Assembly (NCBI RefSeq): GCF_921293095.1
Contig: NC_060257.1
Span: 60,052,968-60,116,967, forward strand
From: Ischnura elegans
Lineage: Eukaryota > Arthropoda > Insecta > Odonata > Coenagrionidae
Length of the DNA: 64,000 bases
Direction: 5' to 3'
Under the pieces are notes generated by a model. The model was given only the letters and a program-made list of their open reading frames with translations, did no database searches and was not told where the DNA came from. A program made the translations under genes and the position numbers. Shown in pieces: positions 8,236 through 56,700 of this stretch (position 1 is its first letter; every line of letters starts with the position of its first letter).

Positions 8236-8630
8236 AAAGCCTTTGCCAATATGAACTTACACTTTGTTTTTCCACGGATTTTTTTATTAAATCACGACCA
8301 CGATTTCCACCGTTAACGTGATCTTTTTGTGAGGAATACGTTGGTGTGCCATCTTAATCTCTACTTTTCTCAGAATCTACATCTACAGAATACCCCGCAA
8401 GCCACCTAAAAGACGTGTGGCGGGGGGTGTTAGGACAGCAGCCGTTTACAGATAAAAAAAGGAAGTGCTCTAATGAAGTTGGGACTAGCGTTTATTAAAT
8501 TCCTGGTTCGGCGGAAAAACAAATTTCCATATCTATCCGTTCGGCAAAACATCTCTCTTAATGTATCGCTTCTATCGGACCTGGAAATATAGTGTGGCTC
8601 TAATATTATGTTCTCTGTGTCGCTCTTAAA

Positions 8631-8758
8631 GATACAATGATAAATGAAGAGCAAACTTAGTGCATGTCCACAGTAATTTTATTTGGTACGACGCGTTTCA
8701 GCGACCTTACTTCGCTATCATCAGGTACAAAATGCCATATTTTCGTCAAGAAGTCATA
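8631..8758. repeat. Left inverted repeat of Penelope-like element 1
   Basis: This 128-bp segment is the reverse complement of 9754-9881 with a single mismatch noticed by eye. The first four bases overlap the target duplication. It corresponds to the Penelope terminal repeat and includes a hammerhead motif on the minus strand. Confidence 0.9.
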
Positions 8759-9719
8759 CCTTTTAAACTCGTGCCATAAAAACATTAATTTCACCATGGA
8801 GAAAGATACAGATGGAAGTTTAAGTTTTTTAGATTTACAAATATCTATATTTGGGGAAAAACATATATTTGACATCTTTAGAAAGCCGACATCTACAGAT
8901 ATGGTCATTCCATCTGATTCGTGCCATGCCTTCAGTCACAAAATGGCAGCATTCCACTCTATGATTAATAGACTCATGAATATTCCACTTTCACGGGAGT
9001 CCTTTGCCAAAGAACTAAACCACATTCATCACATTGCTTATGTTAACGGCTACGATGGGTGTCTAATTGAGAGGATATTGCAGAATTCACGCAGGAAAAA
9101 AGCCATTAAAGAAATCACAGACCTTAAGCAGACCTCAAACACAAAGAAGTGGGTGAAGCTACCATACGTAGGTAAAGAGTCATACTAACTTTCCAAGTGC
9201 TTCCCGAGAGACCGTTTTAAATTCTGCTTTTATTCCCTAGTGACGCTTAAAAAATTATTTGACAAATCATTAGATAAATTTGACCCTCTTTTAAGATCCA
9301 GCATTTATGCAATCAGCTGCGACTCATGTGATTCAACATATGTAGGACAAACTGGTCGGAATTTCAAAGTGAGGACAGCAGAGCAAAAAAGATGCTTTGA
9401 TAAGAAAGACACCAAATCCCAGCTAGCCACTCACCTTATCAACGAGAACCATTCATGCAGTTTCCAACCTAAAATACTGGCCTTCGAAGGAAAAGGACGT
9501 CGGCTCGACGCACTCGAGCAATGGGAAATCACCAGGAGGAGAAAACGCAAGGAAAATCTTTTGAATGACATTGAGTTCCTGAGTCATTCCCCGTTGTTAG
9601 CCCTCCCCCCTCTCAAACCTTCAACCGAACCCCAAATCCTTACGTATCCCAACCACCTCCCCACCCCCTTCCCCCATCCTTTACCCCCCAACCCCTCTCC
9701 CACTTCCACCGACTCATAA
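8664..9719 (+). pseudogene. Penelope-like RT C-terminus plus GIY-YIG endonuclease
   Basis: One reading frame with a single in-frame TAA at 9186-9188. The first part, up to 9188, holds a SFLDLQI segment and a FRKPTSTD segment typical of the region after the Penelope reverse transcriptase catalytic core. The second part (from about 9240) contains IYAISCDSC, STYVGQTGR, the following basic arginine-rich stretch and LEQWE. These match the GIY and YIG strands, catalytic arginine and metal-binding glutamate of the GIY-YIG nuclease, with a cysteine pair before YVG as in Penelope endonucleases. The first 95 bases lie within the terminal repeat, so the real protein start has been lost. The tail is proline and serine rich. 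The element cannot make a full reverse transcriptase. Confidence 0.82.
8686..8728 (-). ncRNA. Hammerhead ribozyme motif (type I), PLE 1 left repeat
   Basis: Exact inverted copy of the motif at 9784-9826, with the same CTGATGA and GAAA cores, stem II and GTC cleavage triplet, read on the minus strand. Confidence 0.8.
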
Positions 9720-9753
9720 CTATACCCCTCCCATTTGCATGATTGTATATATA

Positions 9754-9881
9754 TATGACTTCTTGACGAAAATATGTCATTTTGTACCTGATGATAGCGA
9801 AGTAAGGTCGCTGAAACGCGTCGTACCAAATAAAATTACTGTGGACATGCACTAAGTTTGCTCTTCATTTATCATTGTATC
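9754..9881. repeat. Right inverted repeat of Penelope-like element 1
   Basis: Reverse complement of 8631-8758. It is followed by about 40 bp of unique element sequence before the target duplication. It holds the plus-strand hammerhead motif. Confidence 0.9.
9784..9826 (+). ncRNA. Hammerhead ribozyme motif (type I), PLE 1 right repeat
   Basis: In order: stem I strand GTAC (9784-9787), core CTGATGA (9788-9794), stem II AGCG/CGCT (9796-9799 with 9809-9812), core GAAA (9813-9816), the self-complementary ACGCGT (9816-9821), cleavage-site C at 9822 after GT, and the second stem I strand GTAC (9823-9826). All conserved core bases are present. Stem III is a tiny palindrome, which suggests cleavage as a dimer, as described for ribozymes of Penelope-like elements. 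Activity is inferred. Confidence 0.83.
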
Positions 9882-10129
9882 ATAATGTTCCACAACGTCT
9901 CGCCGAGCACCGTTGAATACAGCTCTTAAAGATATCCATTCTCAATGCATTGGTTAATTATACGAACATTGTCAGTAGAGACTACTTTCTGTTCGTTAAC
10001 ATATTACTGCCATTTGGTTTTAGTGACTACTCGGAACTCAGAATAACGGTAGTTTTGAGGCCAGCACATTTCGAAACCACCAAGTTGACGTACTGGTGAA
10101 AAGAAAACAGTAATTTTTCTATACCTTAA

Positions 10130-23710: not shown

Positions 23711-25184
23711 ATAAATTTCAACCTCCGGAACGAAAATAAATATTAACACCAAGGCGAACAAATCTTTAATAAAAGTGTCGGACTAAATGTGGGTCTTGGG
23801 TCATAGTGGTAGCATATTGCAACCCAGATGCTTTGAGAAGTCAGCCAATAATGCTGAACATCAGCGACGCGGAGAGGAGTGAATTTTTTACAAAGGCTCT
23901 TTTTACGGCTTGCCACCACGTGTCGTCGTCACGTGCAAGGGGTTCGGGAAAGCATAAATTCACGCTTGTATCTTTTTTTTGCAGATCCGTCGGATTTCAT
24001 GCGAAGGCATTTTGATTGCAATCGATGGAGTTTATTTTTCAACTGAATTTTTTATCGAGGCCTGAGGCCAACGGGAGCATAAAAAAGAGATGAAAATTAA
24101 TATTCATGAAACGACTGACCTCGTAAAACGCCACGAAGCAAAATTGCTGAAAAGAAAAGTCATGAAAAAATCATTAATTATCAAAGTTCATGAATCAAAA
24201 CACTCGGGCAATGGTATTCCAATTAATATCTTTCATTGTGACAATTACCAGGATCACTTCTTTCGTGTAGAATAGAGAGAGATGTAATAAATTCGTACTG
24301 AAATCAGGATTTATGTCTGATACGCTTATTTTCTAGAGAATCTTTTCGCTGAATAAATATTCATAAATGTGTATACGTATATGCACGCAAAATAAATATT
24401 TATGAAATCATTGAACTCTGAAATTCTATGAAGCAAAAAATCTGAACAGAAAAGTCATCAAAAAATCATTAATTATGTAAATTCATAAAGCAACACTTAA
24501 ACAATGGTATTCCAATTAATTTTTTTCATTGTGACATTTATTAGGACTACCTCTTTCATGTAGAATACTTAAGAGGAGAGATGTAACAAAAACCGTTGTG
24601 AATTGTGGATTTATGTCTGATAGGCTTATTTTCTGGATAGCCATCTCGCAACTTCTTTTCACATTTTCCCAGATCGACGTCAAAAGTGTCTAATGGCATA
24701 CCTATTTGGTATTTTTTTTAGTTTCTATTAAGTTGAATTCATGAATACGGCAGTTCATCAATACGTTTGATTTTTTAATGAAGTGTATAGACCATCGAAA
24801 AAATAAAATATAAATAAATATTCATGACACCACTAAACTCTGAAATTCTATGATGCAAAAAATCATAACCGAAAAGTTTTGCATTAATTATAATTAATCT
24901 AAGCTCTAACAGCAACACTCAGGCGTCGGTCATTTATATTTATGCCTTTTTCATAAATATATAATAGAAGAACGTCCACCAGGTAATGCCCATCAGAAGA
25001 GCAAATATACAAGTCCTACTGAATTGTAGATTAATGTCCAATAGGCTTATTTTCAGGAGACTATTTTCGCTAAATAAATATTCATTAATGTGTATACGTA
25101 TATATATGTAAATAAATATACATGAAAATAAATATTTATAATATGGTATTTCCTGGAGTATAGGTCATTTATACAAAAGTTAGC

Positions 25185-25226
25185 AGCCAACGTTTCGATT
25201 TATTTTCTTAAATCATCTTCAGGGCT
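25185..25226 (-). ncRNA. Hammerhead ribozyme motif, left arm of foldback
   Basis: Inverted copy of the motif at 25512-25553, read on the minus strand, with the same cores and stems. Confidence 0.78.
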
Positions 25227-25511
25227 ATGTTAGAAAAAGTGTGAAACAATATAAAATACAGAGAATAAGACGATACACAATATTTATACATGAAGAAGGA
25301 ACAATTGGTTTTTTTATATAATACAATATAATTTAAAGAAATATGTATAAATATACATAAATATGTATAAATATGTATATGTTTATATATACATATTTCT
25401 TTAAATTATGTTGTATTATATAAAAAAACCCTATTGTTCCTTCTTTATGTATAAATATTGTGTATCGTCTTATTCTCTGTATTTTATATTGTTTCACACT
25501 TTTTCTAACAT

Positions 25512-25553
25512 AGCCCTGAAGATGATTTAAGAAAATAAATCGAAACGTTGGCT
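25512..25553 (+). ncRNA. Hammerhead ribozyme motif, right arm of foldback
   Basis: Stem I AGCC/GGCT (25512-25515 with 25550-25553), core CTGAAGA (25516-25522), perfect 6-bp stem II GATTTA/TAAATC (25524-25529 with 25536-25541), core GAAA (25542-25545), palindromic ACGT for a dimeric stem III, cleavage after GTT (25549). Every element of a type I hammerhead is present. Confidence 0.8.
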
Positions 25554-26840
25554 GCTAACTTTTGTATAAATTACCTATACTCCAGGAAATACCATATTAT
25601 ATATTAAATAAGGTCAAGAAAAGGAAAAAAAATAATAATAATAAATATTCATGAAATAACTGAACTTTAAATTCCTATGAAGCAAAAAATCTGGCCGGAA
25701 AAGACAAGAAAAAAATCATAAATTCTCTAAGTTCATAGAGCAACACTCAGGCTATGGTATTCCAACTAATTTTGTTCGAATGGTATTTTAACTAATTGCG
25801 TTCGTTATGGAATATATCATGATCACTTCTGTTACGTATAACTCTCAAGAAGAGAGGTTCAATAAAAATGTTACTGAATTGTGGATTAATGTCTGATTGG
25901 CTAATTGTCTGAATAGTCCTCCGCGTTTCTTTACATTTTCCTGGACCAATCTCAAAAGCTTTTAATGGCATACCTATTTTGTTTTTACCAAGTTAAATTC
26001 ATGAATAATACGGTCACTCAATAAGTTTGAATTTTTCAATAGAGTGAAAAGGCCATCGAGAGAATAGAAGAGATATGACAATAAATATTCATGATATGAA
26101 TGAAATCTGTAATTCCATGATGCAAAAATTATGAACGATAAAGTCATGCAAAAATTAGAGTTTAAGCTCGAACGGCAACACTCAGGAATTAGTATAGTAC
26201 TAAATGCATTATGCTAAATTTTTAATAGTAGCACAACTGCCAGATAATATGCATAATAAAAGGTGACATACAAATCCTACTGAATTGTGGATTAATGTCT
26301 AATAGTAGATTAATGTCTACTTATTTTCAGGTGACTGTTTTCTCTATTTTTACAGTCCTCCAGGTTAACCTGTAAACCCAAAAACAATAAATTAAGACAG
26401 ATATTTTGCAAACCGGAAAGGTATAACAATTTCTCTTTCCCCCCCGAACAATCGAGGACATAAATAAATGCTGTGGAGAACTTCGTTAGCGCATTTCTTT
26501 TTTTTTTGGTATACGCCTGCAGCCCGCCGCCATACGCCTATAGAAGCGACTTGCGGCGTTGTATGCAGATAGGTGATGTAGATTTGTACATCGGATACCT
26601 ATTCAATATTCAAACTTTCTATCTTCCGAATTAAAATCATGAACATAGCCAATCAACAGCGAAAAGATCGTCCGAAACCAACGACAATTAGGCTAAATTC
26701 TAACGATTAATTTTTGAAGAACTTTAAAAATTCGGTAAAACCAGGGACACACTACCAATATTTACAGTTATATCAACGCACCAATTAAAATGACCGTACA
26801 AAGTAAGATAGAAAACTCGTGAAATATTTTTTTTACACTA

Positions 26841-31888: not shown

Positions 31889-32718
31889 ATCTACGCAAAA
31901 GTTGAGAATATCCATGGGATTTCATTGAAATATTCGGTTTTGTGAACCGAATTTCCAAAATAAAACATAAAATGCATGAGCCATTAACTTCACAATTTTT
32001 TGTAGAAGTAATGAATTTCAAAAACATATTCATACACTATCAAGAAATTAAGCTGGTACAATCAATTGAGCAAAGTGAATTTTGAGCAATTTATTTGAAA
32101 AAATAGTAATCTTTTACCATCTCAAGTAGCTAAACGTTTTTAAAAACCTGGAACACGATCAATGTATCCGTAAAAGATGATGACCTACGAAAATCAGAAC
32201 GAGGAAATTTTCGAGAATAGAATTCAATCGGATTCCTTCGTAAAATTATTTATATTGCCTCTCTCCTACCATTTGAATTCCCTCTTGCATTCCGCGCCCT
32301 GAATTTCCGCAATTCGAACGGAAAATCAGCATTCATAACTGGTAGAATATGGATCGCTTCCGATTTTTTCCATAATGCAAGGGAAGTGGATGTGGGAGGC
32401 AAAAATGTTAGGCGGAGCGTGGTAAGGGAAGGATAAAACAGCTGAGCTCATATCATGCGTGAGAAGGCGAATCGTGCACAAAATTGCTTCCGCTAAAAAG
32501 TTCCTTACGCTCCGCTGAAGACGGCGTCGTCAGAAATTCTCAATGAAAATTTCTTTGCACCGCGTTGCGACGGCCATGTAAGCGATTCAGACATTTCAGA
32601 ACTTTCCGAGGGAGAAAATCCCATTCCTTTGGCGCCTCGGTGCAACGTCATATCCACGCCGCTGAGTGCGAAATAATAGAATTGTGAAGATGAGGGGTCG
32701 TGTGCAATAAATTTATCT

Positions 32719-33263
32719 TTTTTCCCTTATTTTGACCTCATTTAATTGATGATTAAATAATTCCTGTAGTATAGGTCATATATAATGCAAAAAGTTGTTA
32801 GCCAACGTCTCGGTTTATTGTAAAACATACATCAGAAATGTGAATGAAAAAAATGATAATACAATAAAGCACAATAATATACAATATTGATGCATAAATA
32901 AAGGTTAAAAAACAGTCTTTTTTATAATAGTTCACATATCTAAATCAATTAACAGCTGTAGTAAAAAAAAGAGCCGCCGAAAATAATGGTAACTAGGTTT
33001 GGTAAAAGCTTAGTTACCTACTGTCAATAAACAAATATGTGCAAAACTAAGATAATATGCCAAAATTCTTATGTATTCCCTTCTCATTTTTTAATTATTT
33101 TGTTGCAAAAAAAGACTGTTTTGTAACCTTTATTCATGTATCAATATTGTATATTATTGCATTCTCATTTTTTCATTCTAGGCCCTGATGAATTTTAAAA
33201 AAACGTTGGCTAACAACTTTTTGCATTATATATGACATCTGCTCCAGGAATTATTTTACCATT
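32719..33263. mobile_element. Decayed foldback related to hammerhead elements
   Basis: A 545-bp insertion between two copies of AATAAATTTATCT (32706-32718 and 33264-33276), with inverted ends that share the phrase TAGCCAACGT with the foldback at 25137. The right arm keeps CTGATGA and CGTTGGC but lacks the G of the GAAA core, and the left arm is also degenerate. It interrupts the 32.6-36.1 kb tandem array. No coding frame. Confidence 0.62.
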
Positions 33264-34986
33264 AATAAATTTATCTGAATTTTTTATGTCTGAGGCTTAA
33301 AAATTTTGCAATCAGGAAAAAAATGAAAATATTTAATAACGCTTAATATTTCAAAAATTTAACCAATTAAAGCTTAGTTTCAAATTGCATCTTTAGTTCA
33401 AAAATAGTGAGAAGAAGAAGACGAGATGTTATGTTTGAAAACTTCCCTGCTATTTATAAGGCTTTGTTAAAAAACCTCCAAAATAATTTACGATATCATT
33501 TTTACCTTCTGCCTGCCTTTTTAGCTTCACATTTATCTCCATTTCTAATATCTGAGGCTAAAAGATTCTGCAATAAATTATAAATTCAAAAATTTTTGGC
33601 AAAGTGAAATTTCTCAAAACGGCAACTCCTTAAAATTTATTTTCAAATTGCATTCTAAGTTTTAAAGAAGTCAGCATAAGAGCATTAAAGAAGAGACATA
33701 ATGTCAGAAAATTTCACCGCACTTTATAAGGCTACGTTATTAAAGCCTCCAAAATAATTTACGAATACATTTTTAGCTCCTGCCCATTCATGGGTTTCAA
33801 TCATTAATCAACGATGTACAGAAAAACTCAATATAGACCAATATTTATACCTATTGTAGTTGACAGCCTGTTGCGAAGAAAATTATAGTTTGAAGGTTAA
33901 ATTGCTTTTAAAATTAACTTAACATTGTAATGTTTCATTGCCAAGTCAAATTAACGACAAGTTAAAAAAAAATTTCAAGCATTAAAAATCAATTAGACCT
34001 ATCCTAGAGGGAAAATCCCATTCTTCGGGCCCTCAGTGCAACGTCATATCCACGCCATTGAGTGAAAAATGATAGAATTGTGAAGATGAGGGGCATAGAC
34101 AATAAATGTATCTGAATCTTTAATATATTAGGCTTTAAAATTCTGCAATCAGTAATAAAATCCCAAATTTTAAAAACGTTTAATGTCTCAAATTTAGCGA
34201 CTCCTTAAAATTTATATTCCAATTGCTTCTTTAGTTTAAAAAAGTGAAGCACGAGTTAATGAAAGAAGATATATAATGTTAGATAATTTCTCTGTTCTTC
34301 ACTAGGTTGCGAAAAAAACATCTAAAATTATTTTTGCGCGTACACTTTTTACAATTCCGATGGTAGCTTTGTTGATGAAACATAGGTTTCTATCTGTATC
34401 TAGGATTAATATCAAATACCAAACTCAAATATATTCCCATTAAAGAAAACAGGCTATTGAGAAGAAAATTATGGTTTGAAGAGTATTAAGGTTAAATCGC
34501 TTTAAAAGTAACTTAACATTGTAATGTTTCATTGCCATATCAAATTCACGGCTTGTTAAAAAAGGTAAAATCTCAAAAATGGCTTCTGCTTACGTTAAGG
34601 TCGCTTCCAGCATCCAGCACAGCAAGGCAAGAAAAATGAAAAATAAAAGTTTAGACATCAAAAATCAACTGGAACTATCCGACAGACAAAAAACTATTCC
34701 TTAGGCCCACAGTGGAACGTCATATCCACGCCACTTGTGTGCGAAATGATTGAATTGGGAAGATGAGGGCTAAAAGATCTATACATTTATCTTTATTTCT
34801 AATATCTGAGGCAAAAAGACTCTACAATAAGTTATAAAATCAATTTTTTTTGACAAAGTATGATTTCTGAAAACAACTCTTTAAAATTCATTTTCAAATT
34901 TCATTCAAAGTTTAAAAATTTTTCACATAAGATCATTAAAGAAGAGACATAATGTTAGAAAATTTCACCAGTCTTTATAAGGCTAC

Positions 34987-35054
34987 GAGTTCAGCATTCT
35001 TTCGGGCTGCATCCGCGTCCGTTGTCGAAGAACCACAACAGTTTCGCCAGCTCT
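34987..35054. repeat. Left inverted repeat of Penelope-like element 2
   Basis: Sixty-eight bases that are the reverse complement of 35708-35775. It holds only the 3' half of the hammerhead motif on the minus strand, because the CTGAGGA half is missing here. Confidence 0.88.
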
Positions 35055-35058
35055 TCTT

Positions 35059-35586
35059 CCAGAAAACAGAGCACAAGTGCCCGCGACGCCTGACCCGGAA
35101 GGTGCCACCAGGCCGGATCCGAAGGCTTATGTCACCATCCCCTTCATCGCAGGGACGTCTGAGAAAATCGCGAGAGTATTGAGGAAGCATGATGTAGTGA
35201 CCAGGTTCAACTGCGTCACTAAGATAGCTGACATCCTACCCGGGCCCAAGGACAGAATTTCACCACTACTCTCCAAAGGCGTGTACCAAGTGCCATGCTC
35301 TTGCGGTAAATGGTACATTGGTGAAACATGCAGAGCGCTGAACACCCGTATGAGCGAACACCGAAGAGCGACCAGAAACAAACAGTTCAAAGCCTCTGCC
35401 ATCGCGGAGCACGCCTGGAGTGAATCCGGACATTCAATTTTATTTGACGACGCCAAAATAATTGCGAGAGAAGACAAGTACTTCCCGAGAATAATAAGAG
35501 AGGCCATTGAGATAGTCAAAAGACCAGCGAACTTTAACAGAGAGGATGGCTATCCTTTGCACAGCGCGTGGAAAAGATATATATGA
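35059..35586 (+). pseudogene. Penelope-like GIY-YIG endonuclease fragment
   Basis: An open frame to TGA at 35584-35586. It starts without a natural start codon in the post-RT linker (YVTIPFIAGTSEKIARVLRK), followed by GVYQVPCSCGKWYIGET, which has the GVY and YIG strands with a cysteine pair between them. TRMSEHR gives the catalytic arginine, a histidine-containing AEHAWSESGH follows, and REAIEI gives the metal-binding glutamate. The nuclease half is intact by eye, but the whole reverse transcriptase is absent, so this is a fragment. Confidence 0.8.
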
Positions 35587-35687
35587 CGCAAATACGAGGA
35601 CGTTCCCTGATTGGTCGAAAGAAATCCACCGAATTGGCGCCAAAAGTTGACTATATAAGAGAGGACTAAAAGCTTCACTTCATCCTT

Positions 35688-35728
35688 CACCTGAGGACGC
35701 TGGCAGGAGAGCTGGCGAAACTGTTGTG
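35688..35728 (+). ncRNA. Hammerhead ribozyme motif, PLE 2 right repeat
   Basis: Stem I CAC/GTG (35688-35690 with 35726-35728), core CTGAGGA (35691-35697), stem II GCTGGC/GCTGGC with two G-U pairs (35699-35704 with 35711-35716), core GAAA (35717-35720), a very short stem III and cleavage triplet GTT. The core is complete; stem I is short. Confidence 0.68.
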
Positions 35729-36130
35729 GTTCTTCGACAACGGACGCGGATGCAGCCCGAAAGAATGCTGAACTCAAGTAATCACCGCGGAAACCTGCGT
35801 ACGAACATTTATAAGGCTACGTTATAAATAACTCCAAAATAATTTACGAATTCACTTTTAGCTTCTGCCGATACATGGGTTTCAATCATTATCTACGATT
35901 TTAAGAATAACTCAATATAAACCAATATATATACTCTTTAAAGATGACAGCCTATTGTGAGTTTAAGTTATTTTTAAAAGCGATTAAACCTTTATACCAT
36001 AATCCTCCTCACAATAGGCTGTCATGGGTATATTTCTAGTTTTTTAAATGTTTCATAGCCACGAAAAAGTCAGAGCAATTCAAAAAGTTTGCATCTCAAA
36101 ATGGCATCTGCTTGTGTAGAGCCCGCTTCT

Positions 36131-38652
36131 AGGATCCATTGAATAACAACAAAAAAATAAATAATTTGATGGTATTCATAAAATTTTTATGCTGCATGGC
36201 AACCAAAACCAGATTTTTATGTGGAGAGTTTAAAAAATATCTTCTTCCTTTTTTCATGATTTTACATGATTGATGAGTGCAAAATTTAATTATGCCGAAA
36301 ACTGTAACGTAATTTTGTGACTAAAGAAGAATAAATAGGCCGGCAAAATCTGGAAAATTACGATTTCTCACTTCTTATTCCACACATCACAGCTTTTTCT
36401 ATCATTTCAAAATGCATCCATGCTTTTTAAAAACAAAAAAATTTAAGGGTAGGAAAAAAGAGTGAAAAAATATTAGGAAATTTTTCTAACCGTCCAATTG
36501 CCAACATGGATTTTTAAATTAAAGAAAAAAGTAAAATTTATATAAATTTATTTTTTTAAGTTCCATATAAACTTTAGCAATAAATGAGTAACATTGCTAA
36601 CCCACGATTTTTAAATACTCATAACAACACCACAAAATTATAAAGATGAAAGTAAGGGCGAACAATAATTGAGATCGAAATATGATATTTTATAAACTAA
36701 TTATTCATCGTGCCGATAAGAGGTAGACAAATAAGTTTCATTAATTTAGTTACTCATTCATGAAATTTTGTATCAATAATACTAATTTTATGACTATACG
36801 AATAAAATAACTTTATCACTATATTATTCAATATATATCCACTAATTGTAAGACAGATTCACTCCGTACTCGGCGCAATGACATTAAAATTAACAGCCGT
36901 ATTATTTTCCTCCTCAATTTCTTTTTTCAACTTGATATGCAGCAGCGTGCATCAAGATATAATTCACCCCGTCCCCAGAAATACGAGAAGAGAGTATATA
37001 GGTATTAATTATTACATGCATTTAAATTAATAAAAGACCCTATGAGAATCGTATCCACGGAATGAACAGCGATGCCAGAGACCATCCGTATGGGAATTAG
37101 AACTGAAGCTTTAGCGGAAGAAAAACGATCTCCTCGAAATATTTATTAAATATTTTGATGTTGGATTAAAATCCAGAGGCAGAAAGTGTCCGTCCTCGAT
37201 ATTAATTGGTGCGGAAGTGCAGACTATTCCCTCGTGGACGAAATAGTTCAGCCAAGTTCTCGAAATCGCTCGTTCTTTTTTCTCGATATGATTCATATCG
37301 AGGGTGTTGGCGTTGAAGCGAGAGAATTGTGGATATCTTGAGAGAAAAAGGAGATGAAAGAAGGCTCATTAAAAGTTTTGGAAGTTCGATCGACCGGAAG
37401 CGATTAAAAACATGCACGGGGTAAGGCCAAGCATTGAAAAATTTATAAATCGATTTCTTTCTTTTTTCTTACCCTCAAATATTTAATGTTGATTAATGTC
37501 TCAGAGTTATTATCGGAGGAAACGAGTTCAATCCCAGCTCATTTTTTTTTTTTGAATCGATACTTTTTTACATTCTAAAATCGGTTATTAGTAATAATAA
37601 ATAAAAGTAAAGTCAAGCTCACTCCGAAACTTTTTCTTTGAATTGCTACTTTTTTTAATTTCTGCAATCGGTTATTAGTATCTAATAATAAAGAAAAATA
37701 AAGAAGTTTTGTTAACACACACTTTAAAAAAGCAATATTTAATGCACTAAACAGTACAAAATAAAGCTATTCATCACACGGAGAATAAAGCTTGGTTGCT
37801 GCTAAGGTTTAGATATTAATATTGCGTGTCAATCCTATCTCAACAAACAGGCTCTTATACAATCATTATTTAATACACCTAATGAGCACCCAGGGACACA
37901 GCTAGAAATTAAGGCAGGGGGGTTTTAGGCGGAACTAATACTGGGGACTAGGGAGTATGGAATACCCCCCAGGGTAAGAGGGAGGTTCGGGCGCCCTTCC
38001 CTAGAAAATGTTTAAAATAAATACTTCAAAATGGTGAGTTTTACGGCTTTTTGGGGGATATTTTATTAATCCTTACGCTATTCTATAAGTAATATCAATC
38101 CAATTAAGTAAAATGGATTTAACTTAAAATTTCCATGAGCTCTGAGGTGGTGGGTTATGTCCCCCATGTCCCCCCCTCGCTGCACCACTAGCCTCACATA
38201 CCCTTGATTATCCGAGTGACGACAAGCTCTTATATTTTCACTTTTTAGTGCATTTGAAACTGTTTTTTAAGAGCGTGCTTTGAATTAATATGAATATAAT
38301 GTTGACTAACGTCACGTAGTCTAGGTCTAAGAATGCGAAATTAATTGCCGTTTGAATATATATTTTTAGGCGTATTTTTTCAGGGCTATGAATTAATATG
38401 GTTACATGAAGGCATGAAGGATAATTAAAGTGTTTTTTAAATAATAAAATTAAAAAATAAAAATAATTCAATTGTACATGCACACTTGAATTTATTATAT
38501 TTCATAACTGTAAAATAATGAATAATATACACCATTGGATCCCAAGTTAAAATCTCAGTTGACTCCTTTCGATGCTAAAAAAAAACAGCCTCGGAGTACA
38601 AGGAGGCACAGGGAGAAAAGAAACTGTAATTTGATGCTTTCCCGACGATTGA
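36131..38652. other. AT-rich stretch, no gene seen
   Basis: Only short open frames and a G-rich MITE remnant near 37890-38190 that shares TTAAGTAAAATGGATTT with the element at 41976 in reverse orientation. Confidence 0.45.
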
Positions 38653-38835
38653 TGTGGGTAAACTATTCTCGGGATTCCTACCGGGGTAATTTTTCCATAA
38701 TGGTCAACTTTTCAAGCTCCGACTCGGGCTCATGTCAACATTTAGCCCTGAGGATAAGCCCCAAGTCGGAGCTTGAAGCGTTGGGCATTATGGAAAAATT
38801 AACCCGGTGGGAATCCCGAGAAGAGTTTACCCACA
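38653..38835. repeat. Foldback, probably a decayed pair of Penelope-type terminal repeats
   Basis: A 183-bp near palindrome whose outer ends are TGTGGGTAAAC and its complement. The right arm contains CTGAGGA (38748-38754), a stem AAGC/GCTT, then GAAG where a hammerhead would have GAAA, and CGTTGGGC. The similarity to the hammerheads elsewhere in the window is partial. Confidence 0.5.
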
Positions 38836-41975: not shown

Positions 41976-42263
41976 CAGTGGCGCAGCGAGGGGGGGGGGG
42001 TTAAAACCCCCCCAGAGAAATATTTAAGTTAAATCCATTTTACTAAATTGGATTGATGTTACTAATAGAAAAGTGTAAGGATTGATAAAATATCCCTCAG
42101 AAAGCCGTAAACCTCACCATTTTGAACCGTTTATGTTTAAATTCCCCAATTTATTAATCTCGCACCTACCGCTTATCCTGGTGGGTATTCCATACCTCCA
42201 CACACCCCGGTATTAGTTGCACATAAACTCCCCACCCAGTCTTACTTCCTGGCTGCGCCCCTG
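41976..42263. mobile_element. hAT-like MITE inside a larger repeat
   Basis: Ends CAGTGGCGCAGCGAG and the complement GGCTGCGCCCCTG. Flanks TAGGAGAG and ACGGAGAG match at six of eight. It interrupts a repeat that is continuous near 3260 in this window. Confidence 0.72.
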
Positions 42264-45825: not shown

Positions 45826-46384
45826 GCCAATGTCAAAGAGATAACACTAAGGTACATGCCTTTCACTTCAACAGCAAATGAAGATAAAGCAGGGATAAAA
45901 ACATTTGCAACCTTAACTGCTGCCTTCGAAACATAAAACCAACGGGATATAAATGCTACCAAGAAATATAAAAACATTCAAGAAATTGAGAGAAATATTT
46001 AAACATTATTATTTTCGCTCAAATTTTGCTCATCAAGGAGTTCATTCACACAATCAAAACCAACTATACACAATGCATTCAATAAATTTTCATCTTTTGT
46101 ATGATAACATACACAATGGTCGATGGATCTTTTAAATCCACACATGACCTACCATAAAGATAGAGGAATTTACAATTTCTTTCTAAAATTTCAACTCAGC
46201 TCTTCAAAGTAAAGCATGTGAATAATCAGTCAACATTGTATTTAAGTGAAACGTTGATTGATTATTCACAATATATACATATGAATACTATATTTTCATT
46301 CATACACCTTTAAAAATCTAAAACATTAACAACATAGCAATATTCGAAACATTACTCTACACACTCAAAACACCATTCAATTCA

Positions 46385-53700: not shown

Positions 53701-56700
53701 TACTATTATGGGTATAAGAGTTCTCATCACTTTTCTCATAATTGAACACATCTCTTTTTATCCAAGAAAAATTAACCCAGTAAGACACTAAGATCTCGGA
53801 AAGGCATGAGCGTTGCCAGTCATCCAATATTTTACAGAACCTCCTATATTCATAATATTATTTCCTTAGCACACCAATGGCTTTAGCGCCTTTCATGCTA
53901 CAAGTTTAAATTTTGTTGTGGTGCATATTTATCATTACATATGTAAAGGCATGCAGAGTGTTTAACCCTTTCGCGCCGGACCTTCGTTGAGGGATATTCT
54001 TCCTCAATACGAGTCTCTTAAAAGTTTTCTTTACTCCCCTGTACGAAGCTTTTTCGCGTCGACCGAAGGCAGCGGTTCCCTCCCTAACCATTTTTGGACC
54101 CAACTCAGTGGGGCGCCGATCCCTTTCCTCGGCCTCTGTCCCAGACCCTAGAGGGATTAAAAGCCCCTTCCTAGGACGAGTCCACGGTCAACTGGCTAAA
54201 ATATTAATGCAAAATATATGCAAATATTTGTTGTTCGCATCGAATTTTAACATTCAAAATGAATTTTGTGTTTTTTTACTGAGCGTGCAGAAATTTTAAA
54301 CGAAGTTCTAACGTTGATACAGACGGATTTAGTATATTTACTAGTTGGTCTATAACTCCGTTGATATTAACGTTAGAATTTTGTTTGAAATTTCCATGTG
54401 GTCAGCAAAAAAAGATGAATTCATTAATAGCAATAGATATCAAAAGTAAGCAACAAATATATTTTTGGAAAACACCCTGCAAATATCAGTAGTTGACCGC
54501 GTGGAGAGGATAAGAAAGGGTCGACCTGAGCGGCCGAAGGAGGGACTGGGCTCGCGCTAAGGCGGATCACGAGGTGCGACCGCGTCCGTGGGTCTATTGT
54601 GTCCACCACGGTCACTTTTTTCGACCTGTGCCGCACAGGCGCGGCATTCGTTGCTTAGGTTAGGAAAATTAACGCCGCACAGGTGTGGCATTCGTTGTTT
54701 ATGGAAGAAAATCCTCGCCGCACAGGTGCGGCATTCGGCGCGAAAGGGTTAAAGGTCTAAAAGGTCAGCGTGTCCTCATAAAAACTTGTAATATTATTAC
54801 TAATGCAATTCAGGCTCAATGCATGAGAAATCGTAATATCCAAAATAGCAATAGCATTCTTAGAAATAAAAAAAAAATGCTCACCCCATTCTGATGAAGG
54901 TAGTGAATAGTATGGAGAAGGACATCCATCACATCACAAGCTTCACGTTCCGAAAAAGACCGCAACCTCAGGATTCGATCAAAGAGTTCTCCTCCCCTTA
55001 ATAGTTCCATAACCAAGTACACACACCTTTCGTCCTCATAAACCTGAAATGACAAAGAGAATAAGATTTCAATTAATGAAAGAAGCAAAACAGTTTACAA
55101 AGTTATAAAACAATCAAAACCAGAATGTAATCTTAAAGAATATCTACTAAATCTCTCCATTTCAAATTAAACTGGCTTGTGTTTTAGAGGTTTTAACTCA
55201 GCAAAATAAAGTTCACTAATGCAAAACACGCATCAAGAGAGAGTATGTTTTGTTTTACTTCAGATAACTAAAATAAAGTTTTTGTAATCTAAAGCTATGT
55301 CTCTCCATTAAAATTGAGAGAAAGGGGCCCCCTCGGAAGAAGTGATTTTTAGGAGGAAAATTAATTTACTGGCCATCATAGAAAAGCTTAGGAATATTAT
55401 CCACCTCTTAAGTTTTCACTTACATAAGGGCTAAACGGGAAGGAAAGAATATGGAAAATATACAATACATGTATGTAACACACCCTGACTGTTTGTCGAG
55501 AACAAATATTTAGAACACTTCCTATTGCAGAACAGGATGAAAATGAACAGTTTAATCCACCCCTACCAAATAGAGGTAGTAATTTCATTAGTATCCTTGA
55601 AATTGGTAATTGTATACTCACATCTCTGAGAGTTGCAATGTTGGGATGATGGCCGTAACGCAAGAGAATCTCCACCTCTTCCTGGCAATCGCCTCGCTTG
55701 GCCTTGTCGATGACCTTCACCGCATACTCCATCTTCGTGATGCGATGCACACACAGTCTCACAACCGAGAAGCTGCCACGACCTATCTCGCCACGAAGTT
55801 CGTACTCATCTGTCACTGAATTGGGCTTCGTGAATGACATCTGAAAGGGAAAGCAAATGTTTTCATCAAAGATATCACCACATGAATCACCTTCTTGTGG
55901 ATTTAAGCAATGAAAATGAAAATTCATGGTGTACATTCCACATTGATACTGTGCGTTTCAAAACAAATAGCAGGGTTATAACGCTTTATAATATTTGTTA
56001 CACTTAACTCACAGCTATAAATGATGCATTAAGTGAAAGAGCAACTCAAGCAGTTGTTTTTTTTGTGTCGGCAACAATGCTCATACACACCCAGTATTTT
56101 CCTTGCCATTAAAAAGTGCTTGTAGCAAAGATGGCGACTTGTAAAAAGAAAGTTTTTTTTTGTTTCACAGTTTGCTAATACAGAATCTGTAGTTACTCTG
56201 CAACGAGCATTCTATTGTGATCCTCAACGTGACAATAACATCTGTGCCTCCACTACCAGCTGACCTTTCAGAATTAAGAAACAGGATTGAACCTTTTCCA
56301 TTCGATGCAGTGGCGGCACGTGCGTATACGCATGTTAGCAAGTGCACACCCAAAGATGAATGAATTATAAAAGAAAACTATTCCTTTGCAGCGAGAAGGA
56401 TAAAAATCTTGTCTGCATTTGCTAGAAACATGAACGCTACAGCTTTTCGAATTCACCGCTCTACAAGTGTGCGATCCAGTGGCATCGCGCCGGGCCAAAG
56501 GCATTGGCCGGGCGCATTTTCGGTCTATGCGATCGCTTGAGGGTGCTCTGGCGGGACGAAGTATGCGGGGGGGTATATGCAGTTCAAATGGGTGATGGGA
56601 GCAGAGTCAAAACGATGCGAGTGCGCACGTGCATGTTTTTGGTGAGTGACTCGCAGGTAGTCTAGTGGTGTAGCCGCCACGTACACTACCTGCACCCAGG

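Follow-up and report, generated by a model that had tools for sequence, protein, structure and literature searches.

The window analysed here, a 64-kb stretch of Ischnura elegans DNA, contains a near-perfect foldback at positions 25134-25604, referred to below as the 25k element. Alignment of the two arms (25134-25359 and 25378-25604) gave 219 identical bases out of 226 aligned, with 7 mismatches and one 1-nt gap, and the arms are separated by an AT-rich loop of 18 nt. The sense arm was read in three frames and contained no long reading frame, while the transcript of the foldback was predicted to fold into a single long hairpin with an energy of -335 kcal/mol. These results agree with a preliminary description of the locus, which had reported near-perfect inverted arms of about 464 bp that lacked a frame and would form one very long hairpin. 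The bounds given at that time, 25137..25600, require revision: the foldback is real, but the actual insert occupies 25140-25639 (500 bp) and is flanked by a 13-bp target-site duplication (TSD), of which the outermost 6 nt of the left foldback arm form a part.

Units of a divergent local repeat lie on both sides of the insert. One sister unit, at 24.3-24.5k, continues through the target position uninterrupted and represents the empty site (76.8% identity), which defines both the limits of the insert and the duplicated target sequences listed in Table 1. The two copies of the TSD are identical at 12 of 13 bp. Beyond the right arm is a tail of 41 nt with no counterpart on the left side. Two automatic finders ranked other direct repeats above this TSD: an exact-word search placed a 13-bp match at 25073 first, with 25127 giving 10 exact bp, and a second finder favoured an overlapping 17-bp alternative with 1 mismatch that ended at 25127. 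These rankings are attributed to the AT-rich host array, in which similar words are repeated, and the TSD at 25127-25139 was preferred on two grounds, the alignment to the empty site and the short ends of the arms in the other copies.

Table 1. Coordinates of the 25k element, its parts and the related insertions within the window
Position	Strand	Feature	Basis or details
8622..9934	+	Second insert of a Penelope-like element (PLE)	TSD GCTCTTAAAGATA, 13/13; one hammerhead in each of the two arms (inverted and sense); between them an ORF region truncated at its 5' side and including a GIY-YIG part; tail of 44 nt
25127..25139	.	Left TSD, AATAAATATTTAT	Direct repeat of 25640-25652 with 1 mismatch; single copy in the sister unit at 24.3-24.5k
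25140..25359	-	Inverted pseudo-LTR arm whose outer end is the untailed ("short") one	Complementary to right arm; outer end within the short-end group of other copies
25184..25227	- (catalytic polarity)	Minimal type I hammerhead core with the palindrome ACGT at stem III	Descriptor scan and direct reading
25360..25377	.	AT-rich loop, arm-arm junction	Arm alignment
25378..25598	+	Sense pseudo-LTR arm	Starts about 97 nt 3' of the stop codon of the coding relative L031
25511..25554	+	Hammerhead core, predicted cut 25549/25550	Descriptor scan
25599..25639	+	Tail, 41 nt, element sequence on one arm only	Homologous tail on the 32.7k copy; one arm tailed in each of 20 other inverted pairs
25640..25652	.	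Right TSD, AATAAATATTCAT	Direct repeat of left TSD; empty-site alignment
32706..33276	-	Older relative of the 25k element	TSD AATAAATTTATCT, 13/13; foldback arms; one tailed arm; 146-nt middle without long frame
34974..35821	+	Third PLE insert	TSD TTTATAAGGCTACG, 14/14; GIY-YIG type ORF at 35077-35586 between a truncated inverted arm and a sense arm, the latter containing a hammerhead-like core; tail of 33 nt

Related insertions within the window

Three further inserts in the window, at 8k, 32k and 35k, were built to the same plan of TSD, arm, middle, arm, tail and TSD (Table 1). The inverted arms of the 8k insert are identical at 127 of 128 positions, and a spanning empty site for this insert was not found. 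The 32k insert has two degraded hammerhead cores and an empty site at 33995-34333; its arm shares 172 identical positions with the 25k arm against 55 mismatched ones, and since both copies have the same tail, the tail is element sequence. The hammerhead-like core of the 35k insert has an imperfect stem III palindrome, and the corresponding empty site is 33529-33876. Spanning empty sites were therefore obtained for three of the four window elements (25k, 32k and 35k). An exact word of at least 13 bp was present at the boundaries of three of the four (13, 13 and 14 bp, with 12/13 at 25k), compared with 14 of 3000 random placements. The divergent local repeat arrays at 24090-26350 and 32600-36000 host the PLE inserts.

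The GIY-YIG type fragments of the 8k and 35k inserts matched each other with an E value of 4e-11 for that single comparison. Against the Pfam GIY-YIG model the 8k fragment fell below the cut-off (E 0.05) and the 35k fragment gave no match. The Pfam matches of the first 8k ORF piece were all below the cut-off and were taken as chance. A PDB sequence search with the 8k endonuclease piece returned 6 matches, the best with an E value of 0.4 and none credible, and a scan of viral contigs with the 35k endonuclease pattern gave 2 pattern matches with no relative among them.

Genomic copies and coding relatives

A search of the 1.72-Gb genome with the 25k arm listed at least 48 matches, mostly 97-99% identical, the best 40 of 1129 candidates being scored. 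The genome search proposed in the preliminary description therefore found a multi-copy arm and not a single-copy locus. Of the two origins it suggested, recent origin or gene conversion, the former fits both the 97% identity of the arms and that of the listed copies; gene conversion is not needed.

In total 39 loci, drawn from the best-scored 40 of the 1129 candidates, were studied: 29 from L001-L030, where L018 was left out as the same place as L004, together with L035-L044. Fourteen were also available as longer stretches. The following were counted once as the same place: L003/L032, L012/L031, L020/L034, L022/L033, L005/L045, L006/L046, L008/L047, L009/L048, L013/L049, L014/L050, L021/L051, L024/L052, L029/L053 and L030/L054. 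The 39 loci consisted of 21 inverted pairs and 18 single arms, where single means that no partner was seen in the flanking DNA, which extended about 2 kb for L035, L036 and L040-L044 and further for the rest. L021/L051 and L043 were scored as single, their inverted piece comprising only the inner 42 nt, and L052 was scored as a pair, its 14-bp TSD enclosing an unrelated interior of 1.67 kb. This foldback copy occupies L052:3645-6043; its interior has inverted ends (GCAGGGCTATTCTGT and ACAGAATAGCCCTGC) and could be a DNA transposon nested there or a piece of captured host DNA.

A tblastn search against 30 loci revealed a GIY-YIG ORF 5' of the arm in four of them (L003, L012, L020 and L022; E 1.1e-6 to 1.4e-9). 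L031, which is the extended form of L012, contains a frame of 276 amino acids that matched the Pfam GIY-YIG model with 23.1 bits against a cut-off of 22.6, and its stop codon lies about 97 nt before the point at which the 25k arm starts. Because the arm is 3' of the GIY-YIG ORF in L031, the 25k element corresponds to the 3' end of a PLE, present twice and head to head. The ORF itself is missing from the 25k copy, though present in its relatives. In L031 Pfam identified GIY-YIG alone, with no reverse transcriptase domain there or in the window pieces. The start of the 276-amino-acid frame presumably resembles the C-terminal part of a PLE reverse transcriptase. The preliminary description had proposed a repeat element linked to Penelope enzymes, and was right in both respects.

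A TSD score of at least 9 was obtained for 16 of the first 17 pairs, compared with 26 of 1700 random placements. All four added pairs also reached this score, in slightly wider windows and without a control of their own, giving 20 of 21 pairs overall; L027 was the one pair without a convincing TSD. For single arms, scored in wide windows with L032, L035 and L044 left out, the value was 6 of 15.

Hammerhead motifs

Each 25k core is made up of stem I (AGCC/GGCT plus a U-G wobble), CTGAAGA, one unpaired T, a stem II of 6 bp (GATTTA/TAAATC), GAAA, the palindromic ACGT and U17. Direct reading of the 25k, 8k and 35k hammerheads revealed one unpaired base between CTGANGA and stem II in each case. A strict descriptor, specifying the core, a stem II of at least 4 bp, a palindromic stem III and a stem I of at least 3 bp, gave 4 matches in the window, two in the 25k element and two in another element, while 1000 dinucleotide shuffles averaged 0.001 matches and never gave more than 1. 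The hammerhead previously described in each arm (4-bp stem I, 6-bp stem II, CTGAAGA, GAAA and ACGT) is thus supported by the descriptor against the shuffled control, and the cut site then given, 25549/25550, is the predicted cut of the plus-strand core. The descriptor also matched 28 of 29 genomic loci, a share that is biased upward as the genome query contained the motif; L022 had no match and L011 matched only through a diverged second copy.

The Rfam search gave no match at the gathering threshold and no hammerhead among 11 matches up to an E value of 5, which may be explained by the open stem III and the one unpaired base. Viral contigs scanned with the hammerhead pattern gave 0 matches. 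When the hammerhead stretch was folded alone, stems I and II were predicted to form and stem III was not. Co-folding of the two arm hammerheads as RNA gave no double-hammerhead pairing, the 12 intermolecular pairs being located in GUUGGC/GCUAAC, so that folding lends no support to dimer action.

The two 25k hammerheads are on opposite strands, so that each transcript, as read from the DNA, would carry a single hammerhead of catalytic polarity lying opposite its own complement. For a lone hammerhead paired in this way the release of RNA circles appears unlikely, and cleavage is predicted to be probably weak at most. The same expectation of at most weak cleavage and no circles follows from the behaviour of the hammerhead of PAc, a Poseidon PLE from Anolis, which requires protein for cleavage, is dispensable for insertion in vitro and gave no reads at the cut site (PMC11167929).

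Arm ends and junctions

The 60 arm ends fell into two groups, at q223-236 and q254-262 (the query ends at 262), with none of the 60 between them. All 21 inverted pairs had one tailed and one untailed end; this count includes 25k, which defined the query, and 20 pairs are independent of it. With 7 of 18 single arms tailed, approximately 47.5% mixed pairs would be expected from independent ends, giving a probability of 1.6e-7 for 21 out of 21. This pattern suggests that reverse transcription was primed from each end of the target break, with two RNA sites in use.

Exact end coordinates are a weak test of whether junctions are distinct, as some differ by only a few bases, and the junction sequences were therefore compared. 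When the junction regions of the 21 pairs were aligned all against all, 11 alignments crossed both junctions, with 71-86% identity and 6-41 gap positions. The arms of these pairs are about 97% alike, whereas the best match of the 25k junction was 76% (L025). None of the sampled pairs closely matched another across the junction, and consequently none of these foldbacks was recently copied from another. The 5' truncation points recur near reference positions 935-959, just before the ORF stop, and 1035; loci at these points include L005, L006, L007, L009, L013, L016, L017, L024, L026, L027 and L036, among others, and the points may mark a favoured stop or an end of the RNA. A coding-less family with a common interior was considered and rejected for now, since of 12 upstream sequences only L031-L044 shared short exact stretches, and these stretches are read as part of the PLE itself.

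Discussion

The 25k foldback is best described as an insertion, 5'-truncated and without coding sequence, that derives from an abundant Penelope-like retrotransposon and has been reduced to two head-to-head pseudo-LTRs, a reading to which we assign a probability of about 0.92. The features of endonuclease-bearing (EN+) PLEs are present, namely inverted pseudo-LTRs with a tail on one of them, a short TSD at an AT-rich target and a minimal hammerhead in the pseudo-LTR. The element is therefore ordinary in kind, and the suspected ribozyme novelty becomes an element of a known type.

Among the closest parallels are Pen2a, Pen5 and Pen6 of Adineta vaga. As outlined in PMC3846280, these have inverted pseudo-LTRs, one of which may carry an optional tail of 31 bp, TSDs of 8-10 bp, palindromes at the inverted junctions and truncated copies. 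The 25k element shares the inverted pair, the tail on one arm, the short TSD, the junction palindrome and the truncation, and differs in that its interior is gone and its pseudo-LTR has an obvious hammerhead, a word absent from the main text of PMC3846280. A rule of one tail per inverted pair is not described in the titles or abstracts of the PLE literature found, and the pattern may nevertheless be known in kind because the tail is given in PMC3846280 as optional on one inverted pseudo-LTR. PAc resembles the 25k family in its pseudo-LTR hammerhead, its tail between two reverse transcription start sites, its AT-rich targets and its GIY-YIG endonuclease (PMC11167929). In contrast, PAc is tandem and its ORF begins at stem II, while in 25k the ATG at stem II is separated from a stop by one codon.

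Minimal type I hammerheads occur by the thousand in many animal genomes, some of them in PLE pseudo-LTRs, according to the account in PMC7761336. Those of PLEs are there described as having no regular helix III and are thought to work as dimers (Cervera and de la Pena 2014; Lunse et al. 2017, via PMC7761336). The 25k hammerheads likewise have no regular helix III, but the two copies face each other, and the arm-arm duplex competes with hammerhead folding.

The preliminary description had called the element a candidate retrozyme-like one, which would make it a non-autonomous element spreading through hammerhead-released circular RNA with the help of Penelope enzymes. The core is well formed, the arm is multi-copy (at least 48 matches listed), and PLEs and Terminons are named in PMC7761336 as likely helpers of animal retrozymes. 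Metazoan retrozymes are similarly short, multi-copy and equipped with a hammerhead. However, PMC7229834 and PMC7761336 describe them as direct repeats in tandem, which bear hammerheads of the classical type I and give rise to circular RNA, whereas 25k is an inverted PLE remnant whose stem III has no loop, whose arm is part of a coding PLE, and whose TSD and tail are of the PLE type. The tandem copies for which the preliminary description had proposed a search were also missing: in 28 of 29 loci (about 3.2 kb each) the roughly 1.5 kb to either side contained no second same-strand arm, the exception, L011, having a same-strand relative of only 75% identity about 1.1 kb away. The retrozyme label is accordingly abandoned as highly improbable. 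Still less can be said for a MITE or foldback DNA transposon with long terminal inverted repeats, which would account for the TSD and the long inverted arms and has next to no chance of being correct given the tail of 33-44 nt between one arm and the TSD in the three elements measured, the different arm lengths of the copies and the linkage of the arms to a GIY-YIG ORF.

How the foldback arose is a separate question. Copying of the foldback as a unit, as a replicating non-autonomous PLE derivative, would be in keeping with the two related coding-less foldbacks (25k and 32k) found in one 64-kb window, with the presence of about 40 nt or less of the reference ORF in 16 of 21 pairs, and with the recurrent truncation points. 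A shared junction should then match at about 97% as the arms do, in place of the 71-86% found in the 11 alignments, and 25k has no middle where 32k has an unrelated one of 146 nt, so that we consider such copying very unlikely. An inverted arm made by self-priming, or snap-back, on an antisense template instead of by priming from both target ends is the mechanism proposed in PMC3846280, and the tight junctions of 25k, L004, L015, L016, L022 and others would suit it. In its simple form it predicts equal outer ends, against the one tailed and one untailed end of every pair, and the inner truncation points are often hundreds of bases apart; it is judged rather unlikely here.

For the alternative of two-ended priming, biochemical work on the Anolis PLE protein offers a framework. 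Cutting and extension by this protein involve both strands, and synthesis begins internally, at two neighbouring sites on the RNA; AT-rich DNA is favoured for cleavage, and the tail is the stretch between the two start sites; in vitro the strands showed no difference in start site, and the steps past first-strand synthesis are yet to be validated (PMC11167929). At 25k, the PLE protein would have made a staggered cut at the AT-rich site, and both DNA ends may have primed reverse transcription on pseudo-LTR RNA. Priming by one end at the distal start site would have left the tail, and the other end would have primed about 41 nt upstream, after which the two short cDNAs would have joined at an AT-rich stretch, the hammerheads presumably being carried along as a component of the pseudo-LTR. 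We tentatively propose, at slightly less than even odds, a rule for this PLE family whereby each end of the target break always primes on its own fixed RNA start site, different from that of the other end, and either cDNA may extend further. If true, the foldback would be a fossil of ordered two-ended priming, which a protein dimer positioned on two RNA sites could for instance carry out, and snap-back self-priming would have had no part in it. The large set of similar insertions records how PLEs build inverted pseudo-LTRs and makes the mechanism of PLE insertion testable.

Other features of the window

Other strong short hairpins of MITE-like appearance are located at 46217-46270, 54274-54410 and 38653-38835, the first two giving weak matches to microRNA families that are probably due to chance. 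Inverted repeats at 38011-38128 and 42023-42140 are 88% alike and 3.9 kb apart, and are perhaps the ends of a DNA transposon. On the minus strand, 55397-55936 contains an ORF in which Pfam recognised a protein kinase domain (E 3.7e-10); it may be an exon or a retrocopy.
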